From Candidatus Zixiibacteriota bacterium (lineage in GTDB: Bacteria; Zixibacteria; MSB-5A5; UBA10806), in the NCBI GenBank assembly GCA_020344055.1, contig CP070813.1, positions 597,048-653,398 of the forward strand: a stretch of 56,351 nt of DNA, given 5' to 3'. The notes beneath the pieces are model-generated. The model searched no databases. It was given only the letters and a program-made list of their open reading frames with translations, and was not told the origin of the DNA. Both the position numbers and the translations under genes were made by a program. Positions 7,199-53,508 of this stretch are shown in pieces. Positions within the stretch are counted from its first letter, which is position 1. Every line of letters starts with the position of its first letter.

Positions 7199-7271
7199 AG
7201 CCACCGAGCGGGATCGAACCGCTGACCTGCTGATTACGAATCAGCTGCTCTACCGGCTGAGCTACGGTGGC
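7199..7271 (-). tRNA. tRNA-Thr (anticodon CGU)
   Basis: Read on the minus strand, the acceptor GCCACCG pairs with CGGTGGC. The D-arm is GCTC...GAGC, the anticodon stem GCTGA/TCAGC encloses TTCGTAA with anticodon CGT, and the T-arm is AGCGG-TTCGATC-CCGCT. The 73-nt cloverleaf is complete with a T discriminator, and no CCA is encoded. CGU reads ACG codons. Confidence 0.95.
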
Positions 7272-45773: not shown

Positions 45774-46820
45774 ATGTCGTTTGAGAATCTGTCTGAAAGA
45801 GAAAGAAAAATACTGAAAGTCCTTATAGATCATTATGTTTTGACTGCGGAACCTGTAGCCTCCCGGGCTATCGCCAAAAAATACGGGCTGAAGCTGTCTC
45901 CGGCAACCGTCAGAAATACCATTAAAGATCTCGAGGAGATAGGCCTGGTCAGCCAGCCGCATACGTCCGCCGGCAGAGTTCCGACCACCGAGGGCTATCG
46001 TATATATGTGAATTACCTGCTCCAGCCCGACGAGCCTTCGGAACCGGATCAACAGATGATAAGCGATTTCCTCAGCGGCGCCCTATCGGGTATCGACCAG
46101 ATTCTCGAGCAGACCTCGAGAGTACTCGGTTCGGTATCCAGCCAGCTCGGCATAACGATCGCGCCGCAGTTCGAGTCCGGTATTATTACGAGACTGGAGT
46201 TGATCCCGGTGGCCGAAAGAAGAGTGCTGGTGGTGCTGGCTATGAAATCGGGCCTCGCGAAAACCGTGCTGCTGGAGGTGGAGACCGAGCTCAAGGATAT
46301 CGGTCTACGTGAGACGGCCTCGATATTGAATGAGCGGCTGTGCGGCTTGAGCATCGGCGAGTTGAAACGGACCATTAAGAGGCGTCTGGCGGAACCGACG
46401 CGGGGCAATCCCCAGCTGATAAAGATGTTTATCGAATCCTCGGATGAGCTTCTGAGTTTCTCCGGAGAGAGAGATATACACTTTGGCGGGACAAGCTATT
46501 TGATGAATCAGCCGGAGTTTAATGATCCCGGAAAAATGAGGGAGTTGCTGAATCTGCTTGATCGGAGAGAGACGGTCGGGAGGTTGATGTCGGAAGCCTC
46601 CGGTGTCGAGGGAATCAGAGTGGTAATCGGAGTCGATTCGGAGGAGAAATCCGATGAGATCGGCAGGACGGCGGAGCTTTCGATTCTATCATCCACGTAC
46701 ACGGCCGGTAAATTTAAGGGCGTTTTGGGGATAATGGGCCCGACGCGAATGCCCTATTCGCGGCTCATCGGAATCGTGGACTTTACGGCCAAAAGACTTT
46801 CTCAAATTTTATCCGAATAA
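45774..46820 (+). CDS. hrcA: Heat-inducible transcription repressor HrcA
   Basis: A 348-residue repressor of class I heat-shock genes. The N-terminal winged helix (about 1-75) has LSERERKILKVLIDHYVLTAE at its start, then SPATVRNTIKDLEEIGL, and HTSAGRVPTTEGYR at the end, the most conserved block of the family. The remaining GAF-like and dimerisation regions are complete to IVDFTAKRLSQIL. It is normally folded by GroEL and binds CIRCE operators. It is first gene of the heat-shock cluster, with GAAGGCGG upstream of the ATG. Its operator is not visible near any gene here, so its target must have a diverged sequence or lie elsewhere. Confidence 0.97.
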   Translation: MSFENLSERERKILKVLIDHYVLTAEPVASRAIAKKYGLKLSPATVRNTIKDLEEIGLVSQPHTSAGRVPTTEGYRIYVNYLLQPDEPSEPDQQMISDFLSGALSGIDQILEQTSRVLGSVSSQLGITIAPQFESGIITRLELIPVAERRVLVVLAMKSGLAKTVLLEVETELKDIGLRETASILNERLCGLSIGELKRTIKRRLAEPTRGNPQLIKMFIESSDELLSFSGERDIHFGGTSYLMNQPEFNDPGKMRELLNLLDRRETVGRLMSEASGVEGIRVVIGVDSEEKSDEIGRTAELSILSSTYTAGKFKGVLGIMGPTRMPYSRLIGIVDFTAKRLSQILSE

Positions 46821-46823
46821 GCC

Positions 46824-46853
46824 TTGACACATAATTTTTGTACCCCATAAAAT
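46824..46853 (+). promoter_or_regulatory. Internal promoter before grpE
   Basis: TTGACA (perfect), an 18-nt spacer and TAAAAT lie between hrcA and grpE, starting 3 bases after the hrcA stop. It would let grpE and the genes after it be transcribed apart from hrcA. Confidence 0.6.
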
Positions 46854-46882
46854 ATGAAACTTCTTTTGAAGGTATGAGCGCG

Positions 46883-47392
46883 ATGAAGAAAAATAAATTG
46901 CATCCCGCGGCCGAATTGGCGGCGTACAAAATGGGGATCTTAAAATCGAAAACGGCCGCGGAAGATGAAGAAAAATTTATTCGTCTGGCAGCAGAGTTCG
47001 ATAATTACCGAAAAAGGTCATCGAAACAGTTCGCCCAATTGATGAAAAGCGCCAACGAGGAACTGATCCTGGAGGTCCTGGACGTGGTGGACGATCTCCA
47101 GAGGGCTCTGGAGACATTGTCTTCCCCGGATTCCGGGACCGGCATCGAAAACTGCGAGAACGTGCTGGCGGGCATGAGGCTCATTTATGAGAAGCTGATG
47201 TCCGTTTTAACAAACAGGGGCATCAGGGCGATAGAGGCCCTCAACAAACCGTTCGATCCCAACTACCATGAGGCCGTAATGCAGACGGCGTCGGAGGAAC
47301 ATGTGGCCGGCACCGTGATAAATGTCGTATCCCCCGGATACATGCTGGACGATAGAGTAATAAGGCATTCGAAAGTAGTGGTAGCTTCATAA
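46883..47392 (+). CDS. grpE: Nucleotide exchange factor GrpE
   Basis: A 169-residue DnaK co-chaperone that drives ADP release. The ATG at 46883 is favoured by a GAAGG ten bases upstream; an ATG at 46874 is possible. The helix (FIRLAAEFDNYRKRSSKQ) and the beta-domain signature (PFDPNYHEAV, then GTVINVVSPGYMLDDRVIRHSKVVV) are both clear. The N-terminal acidic tail is short compared with many GrpE proteins. It lies 62 bases after hrcA with its own promoter and is followed after 47 bases by the ParA-type gene, so the usual direct grpE-dnaK adjacency is broken. Confidence 0.96.
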   Translation: MKKNKLHPAAELAAYKMGILKSKTAAEDEEKFIRLAAEFDNYRKRSSKQFAQLMKSANEELILEVLDVVDDLQRALETLSSPDSGTGIENCENVLAGMRLIYEKLMSVLTNRGIRAIEALNKPFDPNYHEAVMQTASEEHVAGTVINVVSPGYMLDDRVIRHSKVVVAS

Positions 47393-47439: not shown

Positions 47440-48399
47440 ATGTCAAAGATTATTGCAGTCATGAATCAAAAGGGTGGAGTTGGGAAAACGACCACCACAG
47501 TTAATCTGGGCGCGGCCCTGGCGGGAAAATCATTCAAAGTGCTGCTTGTGGACCTCGATCCCTCGGGCAGCCTCTCCAACTGGCTGAGCAATGAGGACGG
47601 TGAAGGATTCTCCGGTCTCGGCGAGCTCGTTTACGGCCGGGCTGCGGCAGCCGATATCATAAGAAAATCAGACGTTTTAGGATTGGATTATATCCCCTCC
47701 GGAAACAGTCTCCGGGAGGTCCTGCCCAAGGGAAGTTTCAGTATCTACTCGCTGACCGAGAGTATCAGGGAATTGAAAGATAAATATGAATATATCATTC
47801 TGGATTGTCCGCCCTCATCGGATTTTCTAATAGGGAACGCCCTCATAGCCTCCGATTCCATAATTATCCCGATACAAACCGAAACGCTCCCTCTACAGAG
47901 CGCGGTAAGATTTCTGGATTGGCTCGATAATTTTATCAACACTCAGAACCGTTCTATCGATATTCTGGGGATACTTCCGTGCATGTTCGATTCCCGAACC
48001 AGGCTGTCCAACATGGTTCTGGAAACGATGAAATCCAGCGAAAACCTGGGGCCCCTTGTTTTTGATACCGTCATAAGAAAAAATGTCAAACTCGCGGAGA
48101 TCGCCGTTTCCGGCAAATCTATTTTCAAGTCGGCGTCGGGCAGTTTCGGGGCCGAGGATTACTGCAAACTTGCAGAAGAGGTTATCGAAAGAACCGGGAT
48201 GACCATCCGGGAACCGGAAAATGAAATCCAGACGGAATCTTCCGACCCGGCCGTCGACGATGCGGATGATCCGGTGACAGTTGGCGTTTCCTCGGACGAC
48301 ATTTCTCATGAAGCTCAAGATCCGCAGGAGGAACATGTTTACCGGCAAAGCAGTTATATTGCAAATGCCGGAGACAACATTGAAAGCGGGGAGAATTGA
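47440..48399 (+). CDS. Orphan ParA/Soj-type ATPase with acidic tail
   Basis: A 319-residue ATPase of the ParA/MinD superfamily. The deviant Walker A KGGVGKTT is at 11-18, with D38 and D40 in LLVDLDPSG (40 being the A' aspartate), and Walker B in YIILDCPPS. The core ends near residue 255 (LAEEVIERTG). A 60-residue acidic tail follows, rich in Asp, Glu and Ser, that I do not recognise. No ParB, parS or plasmid replication gene is nearby, so chromosome segregation is unproven; it may position another cargo. Its TGA stop ends one base before the selenoprotein ATG, so the two are probably co-translated. AAAGG precedes the ATG. Confidence 0.9.
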   Translation: MSKIIAVMNQKGGVGKTTTTVNLGAALAGKSFKVLLVDLDPSGSLSNWLSNEDGEGFSGLGELVYGRAAAADIIRKSDVLGLDYIPSGNSLREVLPKGSFSIYSLTESIRELKDKYEYIILDCPPSSDFLIGNALIASDSIIIPIQTETLPLQSAVRFLDWLDNFINTQNRSIDILGILPCMFDSRTRLSNMVLETMKSSENLGPLVFDTVIRKNVKLAEIAVSGKSIFKSASGSFGAEDYCKLAEEVIERTGMTIREPENEIQTESSDPAVDDADDPVTVGVSSDDISHEAQDPQEEHVYRQSSYIANAGDNIESGEN

Positions 48400-48400
48400 A

Positions 48401-48628
48401 ATGAAGATAGCTATTGAATATTGCGCCGTCTGAAAATACGATCCCGACGCCGTCAGTTTGGCGGGCGCCATAGAAAAGAAATTCGGGATAAAATCGGAAT
48501 TGATCGCCTCCGATGGCGGAGCCTTCGAGGTTTTCATCGATGGCGAAAAGATCTTCTCAAAGTTACAGGCCGGTCGATTCCCGAAACACGAGGAAATTCT
48601 CGGCGCTATAGAGAAAAGAAATCCATAA
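48401..48628 (+). CDS. SelW/Rdx-family selenoprotein (UGA = Sec at codon 11)
   Basis: A 75-residue thioredoxin-like protein read through one in-frame TGA (48431-48433). The N-terminus is MKIAIEYCAV-U-KYDPDA, with CxxU at 8-11, the redox motif of the SelT/SelW/SelH family. It continues with FGIKSELIASDGGAFEVFID, then IFSKLQAGRFPKHEEI. GGAFEVFIDG and FSK-GRFP-EEI are family blocks, and the frame then stops at TAA. GGGGAG lies eight bases before the ATG, and the ATG is one base after the parA stop. A hairpin with a GU-leading loop follows the TGA (listed separately). An alternative is a sequencing error or a broken gene, but no other defect is present in the frame. Confidence 0.88.
48442..48464 (+). 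promoter_or_regulatory. Candidate bacterial SECIS hairpin
   Basis: CCCG (48443-48446) pairs with CGGG (48461-48464) and CC (48450-48451) with GG (48460-48461 region), with a left bulge, enclosing the loop GUCAGUUU at 48452-48459. The loop starts 18 bases after the UGA, within the usual spacing, and begins with GU as in bacterial SECIS elements. Drawn by eye, with no energy calculated. Confidence 0.6.
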
Positions 48629-48649: not shown

Positions 48650-48676
48650 GCCCCTTCGCCGCGTCGGTGGAGGGGC
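48650..48676 (+). terminator. Hairpin after selenoprotein gene
   Basis: GCCCCT and AGGGGC arms form a stem 22 bases after the stop. No T-run follows, so it may be a stabilising or weak terminator structure. Confidence 0.3.
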
Positions 48677-48764: not shown

Positions 48765-48820
48765 AAATTCCATGTTCGATTTTCGGGATATCGCCTGTGT
48801 AAATAGTGCCGGGAGGTAAT

Positions 48821-49615
48821 TTGATCACATTAATCAGGTATGCCGTTAGCATTGTCGTCTGGGCTATAGTGGCGATTGTGCTTCTTTTGACAGGTAAAGT
48901 CGTCTATCTGATGTTCTGGTTCCTGCTGGGGGCCCTGCTGGTAATCGTATGGCTCGGGCATACGGCTTATAGAATCATTTATTTGTTCAATCCCGATTTT
49001 AAAGCCATCAAAATCGTGCTGGTATTCTTGATTTTGATAGCGGCCGGCATCGCCTATTTCAAGTTTGTCGTGACGCCCTCCTGGAATAACTGGAATTCCA
49101 CGCCTGAAGAAATAGACGACACATACGTCGCCGACCGATACTGCCCCGACGCCGAGCTCAGGACTGTCAGAACCCTTGAGGTTAATGTTCCCCGGGATTA
49201 TATTTTCCGATGGATCCGGCAGTTGCCTGAGGTGGGATCATACGGTTCCGGTTTTTTGGGCATCGGCGGCGGGAAAACGTTCGACAGGCTTATGGATGAC
49301 CTGCCCGAATTGAAAGAGGGCGATAGCTTTTTGATGGGGCGCGTGGTGGATATTGAACCGGGCAAAAGTATTACGTTTAATATAGGCGAAGATCCCAAAT
49401 TCCCCAAGCTGGGCATCGACTGCTTTTACGGGGGGTATTATCTCAGGGAAGCGGGCGGCAACAGGACCAGAATCAACATGGTGATGCGCGCCGACTATGA
49501 GGGTTTCTGGGGATGGTTTTACTCGCAGGTTATTATCGAGTTCGGGGATTTTCTCATAGCTACAAAACAGCTCTCGAAATTAAAAGAGATGGCCGAAAGA
49601 AATTTCAAAGAATAG
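48821..49615 (+). CDS. Membrane protein with SRPBCC-like soluble domain
   Basis: A 264-residue protein. The start is TTG at 48821, with GGGAGG four bases upstream; a GTG fifteen bases earlier lies before that site. Three hydrophobic helices (about 5-28, 30-55 and 62-85) are followed by a soluble domain (about 90-264). That domain has EVNVPRDYIFRWIRQLPEVG, then DDLPELKEGDSF and an IEPGKSITF segment, which resembles a SRPBCC/polyketide-cyclase-type lipid-binding fold tethered to the membrane. I do not recognise the family beyond that. It lies between the selenoprotein and dnaK and is probably transcribed with the small membrane protein 40 bases downstream. Confidence 0.7.
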   Translation: MITLIRYAVSIVVWAIVAIVLLLTGKVVYLMFWFLLGALLVIVWLGHTAYRIIYLFNPDFKAIKIVLVFLILIAAGIAYFKFVVTPSWNNWNSTPEEIDDTYVADRYCPDAELRTVRTLEVNVPRDYIFRWIRQLPEVGSYGSGFLGIGGGKTFDRLMDDLPELKEGDSFLMGRVVDIEPGKSITFNIGEDPKFPKLGIDCFYGGYYLREAGGNRTRINMVMRADYEGFWGWFYSQVIIEFGDFLIATKQLSKLKEMAERNFKE

Positions 49616-49655: not shown

Positions 49656-50120
49656 ATGGCTAAAGCGGACGAAATTAACAAACAGGCGTTGTGGTGGACG
49701 ACGATTATTGTGACGATTACCAGCACTTTAATCGATAAATTGTTCGATGTTATTAATAGAGGCGTTAACAGCGATGCTTTCGCTTCAGCGCCGGGCTATT
49801 TCTCTTCGTCACAACCCGACTATTTTCCCCTGATATATATGATCGTTGTCTTTTTTGCGACCCTGATCACGGTCTGGCTTTACGCTATCCTTCAATCCCG
49901 TATGCCGAAAAACTGGATCATAAAAGGTATTATAGTCGGTATTATTTTATTTATTGTGGCCGATCTGGCCAATATGGTGGAAACCGGATATGCTACCGCC
50001 ATCCCGGGAGCCGCCGCGCGGGGGAAAACTTTTTTGGGCCTGCTGGCAAGCCTTGTAAACGGATGCATCCTTACTTATATTTATAGCTGGGTTTCCGGTG
50101 AAAGGAAAAAAAGCAAATAA
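49656..50120 (+). CDS. Small multi-pass membrane protein, unknown function
   Basis: A 154-residue protein with about four hydrophobic segments (about 12-32, 58-80, 88-108 and 125-145), a short loop (GVNSDAFASAPGYFSSS) and a basic C-terminus (ERKKSK). I do not recognise the family. GAGGGTG precedes the ATG. It lies 40 bases after the SRPBCC-like gene and 54 bases before dnaK, inside the heat-shock cluster. Confidence 0.65.
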   Translation: MAKADEINKQALWWTTIIVTITSTLIDKLFDVINRGVNSDAFASAPGYFSSSQPDYFPLIYMIVVFFATLITVWLYAILQSRMPKNWIIKGIIVGIILFIVADLANMVETGYATAIPGAAARGKTFLGLLASLVNGCILTYIYSWVSGERKKSK

Positions 50121-50174: not shown

Positions 50175-52112
50175 ATGGGCAAGGTAATAGGAATAGACCT
50201 GGGGACGACAAACTCATGTGTGGCCGTTATGGAGGGCGGCGACCCGGTCGTAATTCCGAACCCCGAAGGCGGCCGGACTTCTCCATCAATCGTGGCGTTC
50301 AGCAAGGATGGTCAGAGGCTGGTGGGGCAGGTCGCCAAACGGCAGGCCATAACCAATCCCGAGAACACCATTTTCTCCATCAAGAGGTTTATGGGGCGGC
50401 GTCATTCCGAGGTGGCGTCCGAAGAGAAGATCGTGCCCTACAAGGTCGTGGGCGCCCCGAATGACGATTGCAGGGTGGTCGCCCTGGATAAAGAATACGC
50501 CCCGCCGGAGATATCCGCCATGATTCTCCAGTATCTCAAGAAAACTGCCGAGGATTATCTCGGTTCCGAGGTCAAACAGGCCGTTATTACCGTACCCGCC
50601 TATTTCAACGATTCCCAGAGGCAGGCCACCAAGGATGCGGGCAAAATTGCGGGAATGGAAGTGTTGCGCATTATCAATGAACCTACGGCGGCGTCGCTGG
50701 CCTACGGGCTTGACAAGAAAAAAGACCAGAAGATAGCGGTATTCGATCTCGGCGGCGGCACCTTCGATATCTCGGTGCTGGAGCTGGGCGAAGGCGTATT
50801 CGAGGTCCGCTCCACCAACGGCGATACACATCTCGGCGGTGACGATTTCGATCAGCGGATAATCGATTGGATGGCGGACGAATTCAAAAAGAACGAGGGC
50901 ATCGATCTTCGAAAAGACAGGATGGCGCTTCAGAGGTTGAAAGAAGCCGCCGAGAAGGCCAAATGCGAGCTTTCCACCACAGCGCAGACCTCGCTGAATC
51001 TGCCCTTTATCACCGCTGACCAGAACGGCCCCAAGCATCTCGACCTCACCCTTACCAGGGCGAAATTCGAGCAGCTGGTGGACGATCTTATCGAAAGAAC
51101 CGTCGAACCCTGCAAAAAAGCGTTGGCCGACGCCAAGATGAAACCGTCCGATATCGACGAGGTTATCCTGGTGGGCGGTATGACGCGTATGCCCAAAGTG
51201 CAGGAGACCGTGAAAAGCCTCTTCGGCCGCGATCCCCATAAGGGGGTGAACCCCGACGAGGTGGTCGCCGTGGGAGCCGCTATCCAGGCGGGCGTACTGG
51301 CCGGAGATGTAAAGGACGTACTGCTTCTTGACGTAACCCCCTTATCCCTTGGAATCGAGACCCTTGGAGGTGTGTTCACCAAGCTAATAGAAAGAAACAC
51401 TACCATACCCACGCGCAAATCGCAGATTTTTTCCACCGCATCGGATAATCAACCGGCCGTATCCATCCATGTCCTTCAGGGCGAAAGGGAGATGGCCGTC
51501 CACAACCGTACTCTGGGCAAATTCGACCTGGTGGGTATTCCGCCTGCGCCCCGGGGCATACCTCAGATCGAGGTAACCTTCGATATCGACGCCAACGGCA
51601 TTTTCGATGTATCCGCCAAAGACCTGGGTACCGGCAAGGAGCAGTCCATAAAGATCGAATCATCTTCCGGTTTATCGGAGAATGAGATCGATAAGATGGT
51701 CAAAGATGCCGAAGCCCACGCGGCCGAGGATAAAAAGGCCCGCGATCTTGTTGACGCCCGTAACAAAGCCGATTCCACTATTTATCAGGTGGAGAAAAGC
51801 CTGAAGGATTATGGCGATAAGTTAACCGAGGACGATAAGAAGAAAATTCAGGACGCCATTGAGAAGGCGAACAAGGCCAAAGATTCCGAAGATGCCGCGG
51901 AGATAGAGAAAGCGGTCGAGGAGCTGCTTTCGGCCTCGCACAAAATGGCCGAGGAGATGTACAAACAACAGGCATCCCAAGAGACAGCGGGAGCAACCCA
52001 GGAGCAGGCGGCCGGCGCCGAGTCAGATAAAGATGCAGGAACCAAAGGCGATGAAGGCGCCGTCGACGCCGATTTCGAGGTGGTCGACGACGAGGATAAA
52101 GAGAAATCTTAG
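50175..52112 (+). CDS. dnaK: Chaperone DnaK (Hsp70)
   Basis: A 645-residue Hsp70. The nucleotide-binding domain (about 1-383) has [39 protein letters not shown] and [14 protein letters not shown]. The linker ([15 protein letters not shown]) leads to the substrate domain and a helical lid. The C-terminus ends in [15 protein letters not shown] with the acidic EVVD-type tail. It works with GrpE (46883) and DnaJ (53574), encoded in the same cluster. A TATAAT box is 31 bases before the ATG, but its -35 is poor. GGAGG sits at 50159-50163. The stop lies only 3 bases from the converging serpin stop, so there is no room for a separate terminator. Confidence 0.98.
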
Positions 52113-52115
52113 TCT

Positions 52116-53315
52116 TTAACCGGACGTAGGATCGGCAATCTTCCCCAGAAACATTATCGTACCGGAACCGGATTCTCGTATCAGGAACAGAAACGGTCTA
52201 TCGACTCGCATAACGAATTTCTCCGAGGGCCCGGCGCTGGTCGCCATGCCGACCGATGTTACCGCGGCCGCTTCGGTCCCTTCCTCGTCCACGTCAACAT
52301 AAGTTTTGTGTTTCACGAAACTTATGAACATTTGATCTTGCGCGCTGATCCCGGAGAAATCGGCGGCGCCGGAGAAGGCCATTCCCATTCCCAGAGATGA
52401 TAGCATATCCGTCAGGGTTTTGTTATATTCCAGCTTGAACCTGGGCATCGAGATTGTTCCCTTACGGCTACGGAGATTGCCCGTCCAAAGCTTCAGGCTA
52501 GCATCGTCGAGACGTCCTATCAGATCGTCGATCCCTGCATCGGGTTTAGGTAGAAAGATTATCATGCTGAAGGCGCGGTTGCCATACGGAAGCTCGACAG
52601 CCTGAAAGCTGTCATTCTCCAAATACCGAAAACGATTCTCCTGATTCATCATCTTACAGGTAACCCTGGAACCGTCGGTTAGCGTGAACTCATCGTCTTT
52701 GGTATCTTCGACGTCGAATTTCCTCGTCCAGTCGCCATGAAAATAAATGGCATTAATTAGGATCATCAAGAGATCCGGGTTTATCGGCTTTTCGACTATG
52801 TCCGGAATCTTGCCGTTTGTATTCCTGTATACCCAGGCATTAATGGTATCCGCGGTACCCGGATCGCCGAAATTGCAGGGGCTGATTTCGGCGTTGAAAA
52901 ACGACCTGTTCATATCGAGAAAATCGTCTTCGACGTGAAGGTTTTGACGATACCATATGGAGTTGGCAATCTGAAATACGACCGCGGAGTCAAGCGTCAT
53001 CAATGTTTGGCTCAGGTTCCTATAGGATTCGTTGATTTTGTCTATTGATGTGCCGTTCAGCTCCAGCGTTCCGGCCATCGCTTCCCTCGTTTCTCCTTCG
53101 GCTCCGTTATAGACCATCGACAGCGCCATGGAAACCGACAGGGGCGAGATCATAACGTTTTTGCCTTCTTTCTCTTTAATAACTTCTTCGAATAGTTTCA
53201 GACCGAAGCTGTTAATCGAAGCGCCCAGATTGCCGTCCTCGGCATGGCCAGAATCTGCAAAGAAGGCGAAAATCATAATAAACGCTATTGCCCGAATAGA
53301 TCTTTTTGCGCGCAC
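52116..53315 (-). CDS. Exported serpin (serine protease inhibitor)
   Basis: A 399-residue serpin. GTG at 53315 is chosen because GGGAGGAA lies directly before it, whereas the ATG twelve bases upstream has no site. A signal peptide (about 1-25, ending GHAE) exports it. Serpin blocks are complete: NVMISPLSVSMALSMVYNGA, ANSIWY, INAIYFHGDW, then the hinge DEEGTEAAAVTSVG (about 343-356) and VDRPFLFLIRESGSGTIMFLGK. The small-residue hinge indicates an inhibitory, not merely structural, serpin. Counting from the hinge puts P1-P1' at about Ser360-Ala361, which suggests an elastase- or subtilisin-like target. Bacterial serpins are sporadic and often viewed as acquired. It is convergent with dnaK. Confidence 0.95.
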   Translation of the reverse strand: MRAKRSIRAIAFIMIFAFFADSGHAEDGNLGASINSFGLKLFEEVIKEKEGKNVMISPLSVSMALSMVYNGAEGETREAMAGTLELNGTSIDKINESYRNLSQTLMTLDSAVVFQIANSIWYRQNLHVEDDFLDMNRSFFNAEISPCNFGDPGTADTINAWVYRNTNGKIPDIVEKPINPDLLMILINAIYFHGDWTRKFDVEDTKDDEFTLTDGSRVTCKMMNQENRFRYLENDSFQAVELPYGNRAFSMIIFLPKPDAGIDDLIGRLDDASLKLWTGNLRSRKGTISMPRFKLEYNKTLTDMLSSLGMGMAFSGAADFSGISAQDQMFISFVKHKTYVDVDEEGTEAAAVTSVGMATSAGPSEKFVMRVDRPFLFLIRESGSGTIMFLGKIADPTSG

Positions 53316-53508
53316 AATTCCTCCCATTTAAAATAATTTATCGCGAAAATTCCGCGTGCTTGTGGAGTTATTATACGACGATCTTAAACGTTCGTTCAAG
53401 GTAATTTTGCAAATCACATTAAAGCTCTTACGAAACCTTGCTTGCTACCCTTGCGTTTGATGGTTGGTGGTGATGAATAATGCTGATTTGTTCCGGGGTC
53501 ATGGCATA

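Follow-up and report, generated by a model that had tools for sequence, protein, structure and literature searches.

Under the standard code, the small frame that opens at position 48401 of the window (the whole stretch of 56,351 nucleotides analysed here) ends after ten codons. Does the TGA at that point stop translation, or is it read as selenocysteine (Sec) within a gene that goes on to a TAA? The sequence-only reading had proposed the latter, namely a selenoprotein resembling selenoprotein W (SelW) and lying one base behind a ParA-type gene, with a ribosome binding site in front of it. The coordinates of the proposed frame turned out to be exact (ATG at 48401, TGA at 48431–48433, TAA at 48626–48628), the upstream gene does end at 48399, and a Shine-Dalgarno-like site lies 7 nt before the ATG. 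With the TGA read as a residue, the product is MKIAIEYCAVUKYDPDAVSLAGAIEKKFGIKSELIASDGGAFEVFIDGEKIFSKLQAGRFPKHEEILGAIEKRNP, in which the blocks YC-A-V-U, GGAFEVFIDG and FSK-GRFP-EEI, singled out beforehand, are all found. The features of the locus are as follows.

45774–46820, + strand: hrcA, heat-shock repressor (PF01628, 7.2e-46)
46838–47392, + strand: grpE (PF01025, 1.4e-42)
47440–48399, + strand: parA, ParA/Soj-type ATPase (PF13614, 1.7e-39), closing with an ordinary TGA stop codon, one base ahead of selW
48388–48393, + strand: Shine-Dalgarno-like GGGGAG, 7 nt upstream of the selW ATG, read from the sequence
48401–48628, + strand: selW-like gene of 75 amino acids, CxxU active site C8-A-V-U11, reading from ATG to TAA with TGA as Sec
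48431–48433, + strand: Sec-UGA codon, residue 11
48450–48464, + strand: bacterial SECIS hairpin, stem 48450–48454/48460–48464 and loop AGUUU 48455–48459, recognized by conserved motif, pairing and covariation
48650–48676, + strand: terminator-like hairpin of 12 pairs after selW, from a pattern scan only
48806–49615, + strand: conserved membrane-type protein, the next gene after selW, its order kept in the family and the order
50175–52112, + strand: dnaK (PF00012, 3.5e-275)

Taken together, the match to the Rdx/SelW family, the conserved UGA, the covarying hairpin and the sel genes support the proposal, and 48401–48628 is almost certainly a functional SelW-like selenoprotein gene, the UGA of which would be read as Sec by means of the hairpin and of the Sec machinery of the same genome to give a redox protein. 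The checks that the sequence-only reading had suggested all came out in its favour, and none of the outcomes it had named as refuting turned up.

Family, fold and the conserved UGA

Over residues 2–72 the selW product matches both the Pfam family Rdx (PF10262; 1.2e-18, 67.5 bits against a cut-off of 22.6) and NCBIfam TIGR02174 (1.1e-17, 64.1 bits against a cut-off of 34.2), and in the alignment with SelW/Rdx proteins the Cys forms carry, as had been anticipated, CxxC at 8–11. The best NCBIfam match is NF041051 SelTWH_Campy (5.1e-23, residues 3–70), with 81.1 bits, below the cut-off of 88 for membership of that equivalog. The nearest solved relatives by sequence are human MIEN1, which ranks first (6e-11) and has Cys at the UGA position, and bacterial SelW-related proteins. 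An AlphaFold2 model built from eight sequences (mean pLDDT 92.8) has the thioredoxin-like fold; by fold it comes closest to bacterial selenoprotein W-related proteins, to MIEN1 and to mouse SelW (among the structures matched are 2fa8, 2obk, 2oka and, for mouse SelW, 2npb), with thioredoxins next, and C8-A-V-U11 lies at the end of strand 3–8. The product would be a small thioredoxin-like oxidoreductase, thiol- or glutathione-linked, in which C8-x-x-U11 most likely alternates between the selenenylsulphide and the selenol/thiol states.

Within the phylum, 25 of the 132 genomes contain a match to SelW, for a total of 26 copies, 25 of which have one TGA, the sole exception being a Cys copy of a different subfamily found in genome G127. 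The codon position was compared in 23 of the 25 TGA copies (L046 and L048, which lie outside the search pattern, were left unaligned), and in all 23 the TGA occupies the same codon, as it does in relatives from other phyla. In another phylum, that of L011 (297 genomes drawn), 39 of 42 SelW copies have a TGA, and Cys is aligned at this position in MIEN1 and in three further sequences (L024, L073 and L074). Viral contigs yielded just two partial matches. One SelW copy (L093; G249:C32:38641-38850) contains, in addition to the Sec-UGA, a second in-frame TAG; no PylS exceeds the cut-off in that genome, which makes pyrrolysine unlikely at this codon and sequencing error or decay the more likely cause.

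Could the TGA be a sequencing or assembly error, the true codon being TGC or TGT and the protein a Cys member of the Rdx family? Cys forms of the family exist, and the host genome, a single 3.83-Mb contig that is 90.3% complete, is probably a metagenome-assembled genome (MAG) of Zixibacteria, as is its nearest named relative, the Candidatus Zixiibacteriota chromosome CP070742.1. However, the triplet is also present, at the corresponding codon and amid 29 third-position changes, in a second chromosome of the genus that was assembled separately, and its recurrence in all 23 aligned copies, that is in independent genomes, refutes an error, which we regard as highly improbable. To about the same degree we discount a pseudogene or split gene, in which translation would truly end at the UGA and what follows would be a remnant. 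In this genome UGA does serve as an ordinary stop codon, as the end of parA demonstrates, but after the UGA the changes relative to the nearest relative (L008) number 8, 6 and 26 at codon positions 1, 2 and 3, respectively, a distribution indicating that beyond the UGA the frame remains constrained as coding sequence; conservation of the downstream blocks argues in the same direction, and so does the presence of a conserved hairpin together with the Sec machinery in the same genome.

The hairpin downstream of the UGA

The recoding of the selW UGA as Sec would be guided by a hairpin lying within the coding sequence, the AGUUU loop of which sits, in the consensus structure, 21 nt after the UGA. 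A hairpin with a GU-leading loop had been expected to begin 18 bases after the UGA; the hairpin itself stands, while its start had to be moved to 14–16 nt depending upon the register. Folded as a single sequence by RNAfold, the region gives a stem at 48448–48467 with a GUU loop and –9.0 kcal/mol, a stability not above that of dinucleotide shuffles (z = +0.3). Bacterial SECIS elements are described as having a loop of 3–9 nt, a stem of 4–16 bp, a distance of 16–37 nt from the UGA and a minimum free energy of –7.5 or lower, the first two positions of the loop containing a G, after which there is mostly G or U (PMC13188914); compared by hand, the selW hairpin, with its 5-nt loop (G and U in positions 2 and 3), 5-bp stem, 21-nt spacing and –9.0 kcal/mol, falls within these limits, so that the bacterial SECIS check proposed at the outset has a favourable outcome. 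An Rfam scan of the entire window returned only a tRNA, at 7199–7271.

The hairpin becomes significant only by comparison across sequences. With positions numbered from the U of UGA, C24, G26, U29 and G30 are shared by all of 29 UGA-containing sequences of Zixibacteria and other phyla while the encoded residues vary, C24 being the third position of GCC, ACC, TCC, GTC and CTC codons; the resulting motif C.G..UG occurs in 29/29 sequences vs 2.7 expected upon synonymous recoding with local codon use. The five-pair stem is formed in 130 of 145 cells (89.7%), compared with 92.8 ± 4.0 cells after synonymous recoding, which thus destroys the hairpin, and its covariation exceeds that of all 500 shuffles (0/500) and of all slid registers. 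The same structure was then applied unchanged to 26 further sequences that had no part in its definition, and here 127 of 130 cells (97.7%) are paired vs 90.6 ± 4.1 on recoding, the covariation being again above all 500 shuffles (0/500); since each set consists of related sequences, these counts cannot be taken as probabilities in the strict sense. Examples of the exchanges are the closing C-G pair, which is G-C in Cytobacillus, and the third pair, which is A-U in Thermomicrobium. As to the Cys paralogues, L024 and L074 form 3/5 of the stem pairs and L073 1/5 (the counts for L024 and L073 were made by eye from the sequence), and all three also have the loop motif, via Trp-Leu or Trp-Met codons.

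Selenocysteine machinery and the fate of such genes in annotation

The search for sel genes that the sequence-only reading had recommended found the complete set in the same genome: tRNA-Sec with anticodon UCA (68.8 bits), selA (452 bits), selB (366 bits) and selD (343 bits), the tRNA being over its cut-off and the three protein genes over their curated ones. The three genes are clustered at C1:1600362-1604601, and selD is a selenoprotein gene too.

L066 5502-6626, equivalent to G000:C1:1603663-1604601, – strand: selD, with an in-frame TGA in the active-site motif CAGUAAK

With this equipment, Sec would be made by SelA and SelD on the tRNA-Sec of the host genome and inserted at codon 11 by SelB and Sec-tRNA; actual insertion is what we infer from the conserved codon, the hairpin and these genes. 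That UGA might instead be reassigned to Trp or Gly throughout the genome, so that the frame would be open by plain readthrough, is hardly conceivable, being refuted by the TGA terminating the adjacent parA and opposed by the alignment of the site with Cys/Sec rather than Trp/Gly and by the presence of tRNA-Sec and SelB.

Across the 132 genomes of the phylum, tRNA-Sec over the cut-off was found in 106 and selA in 116, making these two components nearly universal in this uncultured phylum. A separate case is the Zixibacteria MAG G127, rated 100% complete, which contains a SelW copy with UGA, its hairpin intact (L049), and a separate Cys paralogue (L024), and in which none of selA, selB and tRNA-Sec is over the cut-off. 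Since selC adjoins selA in its sister genomes, a single assembly gap could explain the missing genes; otherwise, a recent loss of Sec decoding would have to be assumed.

What happens to such genes in public records? It had been predicted that standard gene callers would drop the gene or call a short downstream fragment, and relatives bear this out: the Rdx protein WP_012642931.1 of Thermomicrobium roseum (L071, NC_011961.1) is annotated with a start after the in-frame UGA and is therefore truncated, while the SelW(Sec) gene of Cytobacillus spongiae (L072, NZ_CP089998.1 370650-370865) is absent from the gene table of PLSDB, a table that is itself incomplete. The latter gene is carried by a 690-kb plasmid, where it is flanked by selD and an Hsp20 gene, with selA nearby. 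SelW genes of the UGA type can still go missing or be truncated in public records, and a reading of the raw sequence alone is able to find a genuine recoded gene.

Gene neighbourhood and comparison with known SelW-like proteins

The run hrcA, grpE, parA, selW and membrane-type protein is found in the genus, in the family and in the sister family within the same taxonomic order, and dnaK closes the run in most relatives for which the fetched stretch suffices. Two conserved membrane-type genes, 48806–49615 (no Pfam match over the cut-off) and 49656–50120, lie between selW and dnaK, their order being kept across the family, and a serpin gene (52116–53327, – strand; PF00079, 1.3e-118) lies between dnaK and dnaJ. 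The terminator-like hairpin after selW may end an hrcA-grpE-parA-selW unit, such patterns occurring in the region at near the chance rate (10 found vs 7.5 expected). No CIRCE operator for HrcA is present at ≤3 mismatches anywhere in the window, so that control of the selW cluster by HrcA is not supported.

Gene neighbours were also considered as a pointer to a general functional partner of SelW, an idea that was rejected: next to selW, other Zixibacteria carry genes for SDR or phytoene synthase, and in other phyla the neighbours are unrelated, which makes the heat-shock setting a matter of local synteny. The position between hrcA-grpE-parA and dnaK is a fresh detail, conserved only in this order of Zixibacteria, and a functional tie of selW to the neighbouring heat-shock genes is speculative. 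A more specific form of this idea, that in this order the selW product serves the DnaK-GrpE-DnaJ chaperone system specifically, as redox partner or sensor, and that selW is co-transcribed with hrcA-grpE-parA, appears to us improbable; if true, it would tie selenium supply to heat-shock control.

A full-text literature search of partial coverage found no earlier report of the SelW copy of this genome, and the one paper it returned in which both the words Zixibacteria and selenocysteine occur concerns marine deltaproteobacteria (PMC8318568). As a family, bacterial SelW-like selenoproteins are common and have long been known, since 2005 (PMC1088965, PMC1794560, PMC2398784); they form the largest family in the GOS table, with 427 Sec and 56 Cys members (PMC2398784), and among sequenced organisms they are known from Deltaproteobacteria, Clostridia and others, Cys homologues being few where Sec is used (PMC1794560). 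That Sec forms outnumber Cys forms among the copies surveyed here agrees with these surveys (PMC2398784, PMC1794560).

How, then, does the gene compare with those already described? Eukaryotic SelW and MIEN1/Rdx12 (C17orf37) share the fold of the selW product, but MIEN1 has Cys (CxxC) where the latter has Sec (CxxU), and eukaryotic SelW relies on a SECIS of a design other than the bacterial one (compared in PMC1088965). On the other hand, the SelW-like proteins of the Sargasso Sea, the GOS collection and sequenced genomes (PMC1088965, PMC2398784, PMC1794560) have, like the protein described here, an N-terminal CxxU, membership of the Rdx/SelWTH family and a bacterial SECIS after the UGA. Nothing essential sets selW apart from them, the differences being the host, a Zixibacterium, and the location in a heat-shock cluster; the gene leaves the biology of the family unchanged and is a well-evidenced, ordinary addition to a known selenoprotein family.
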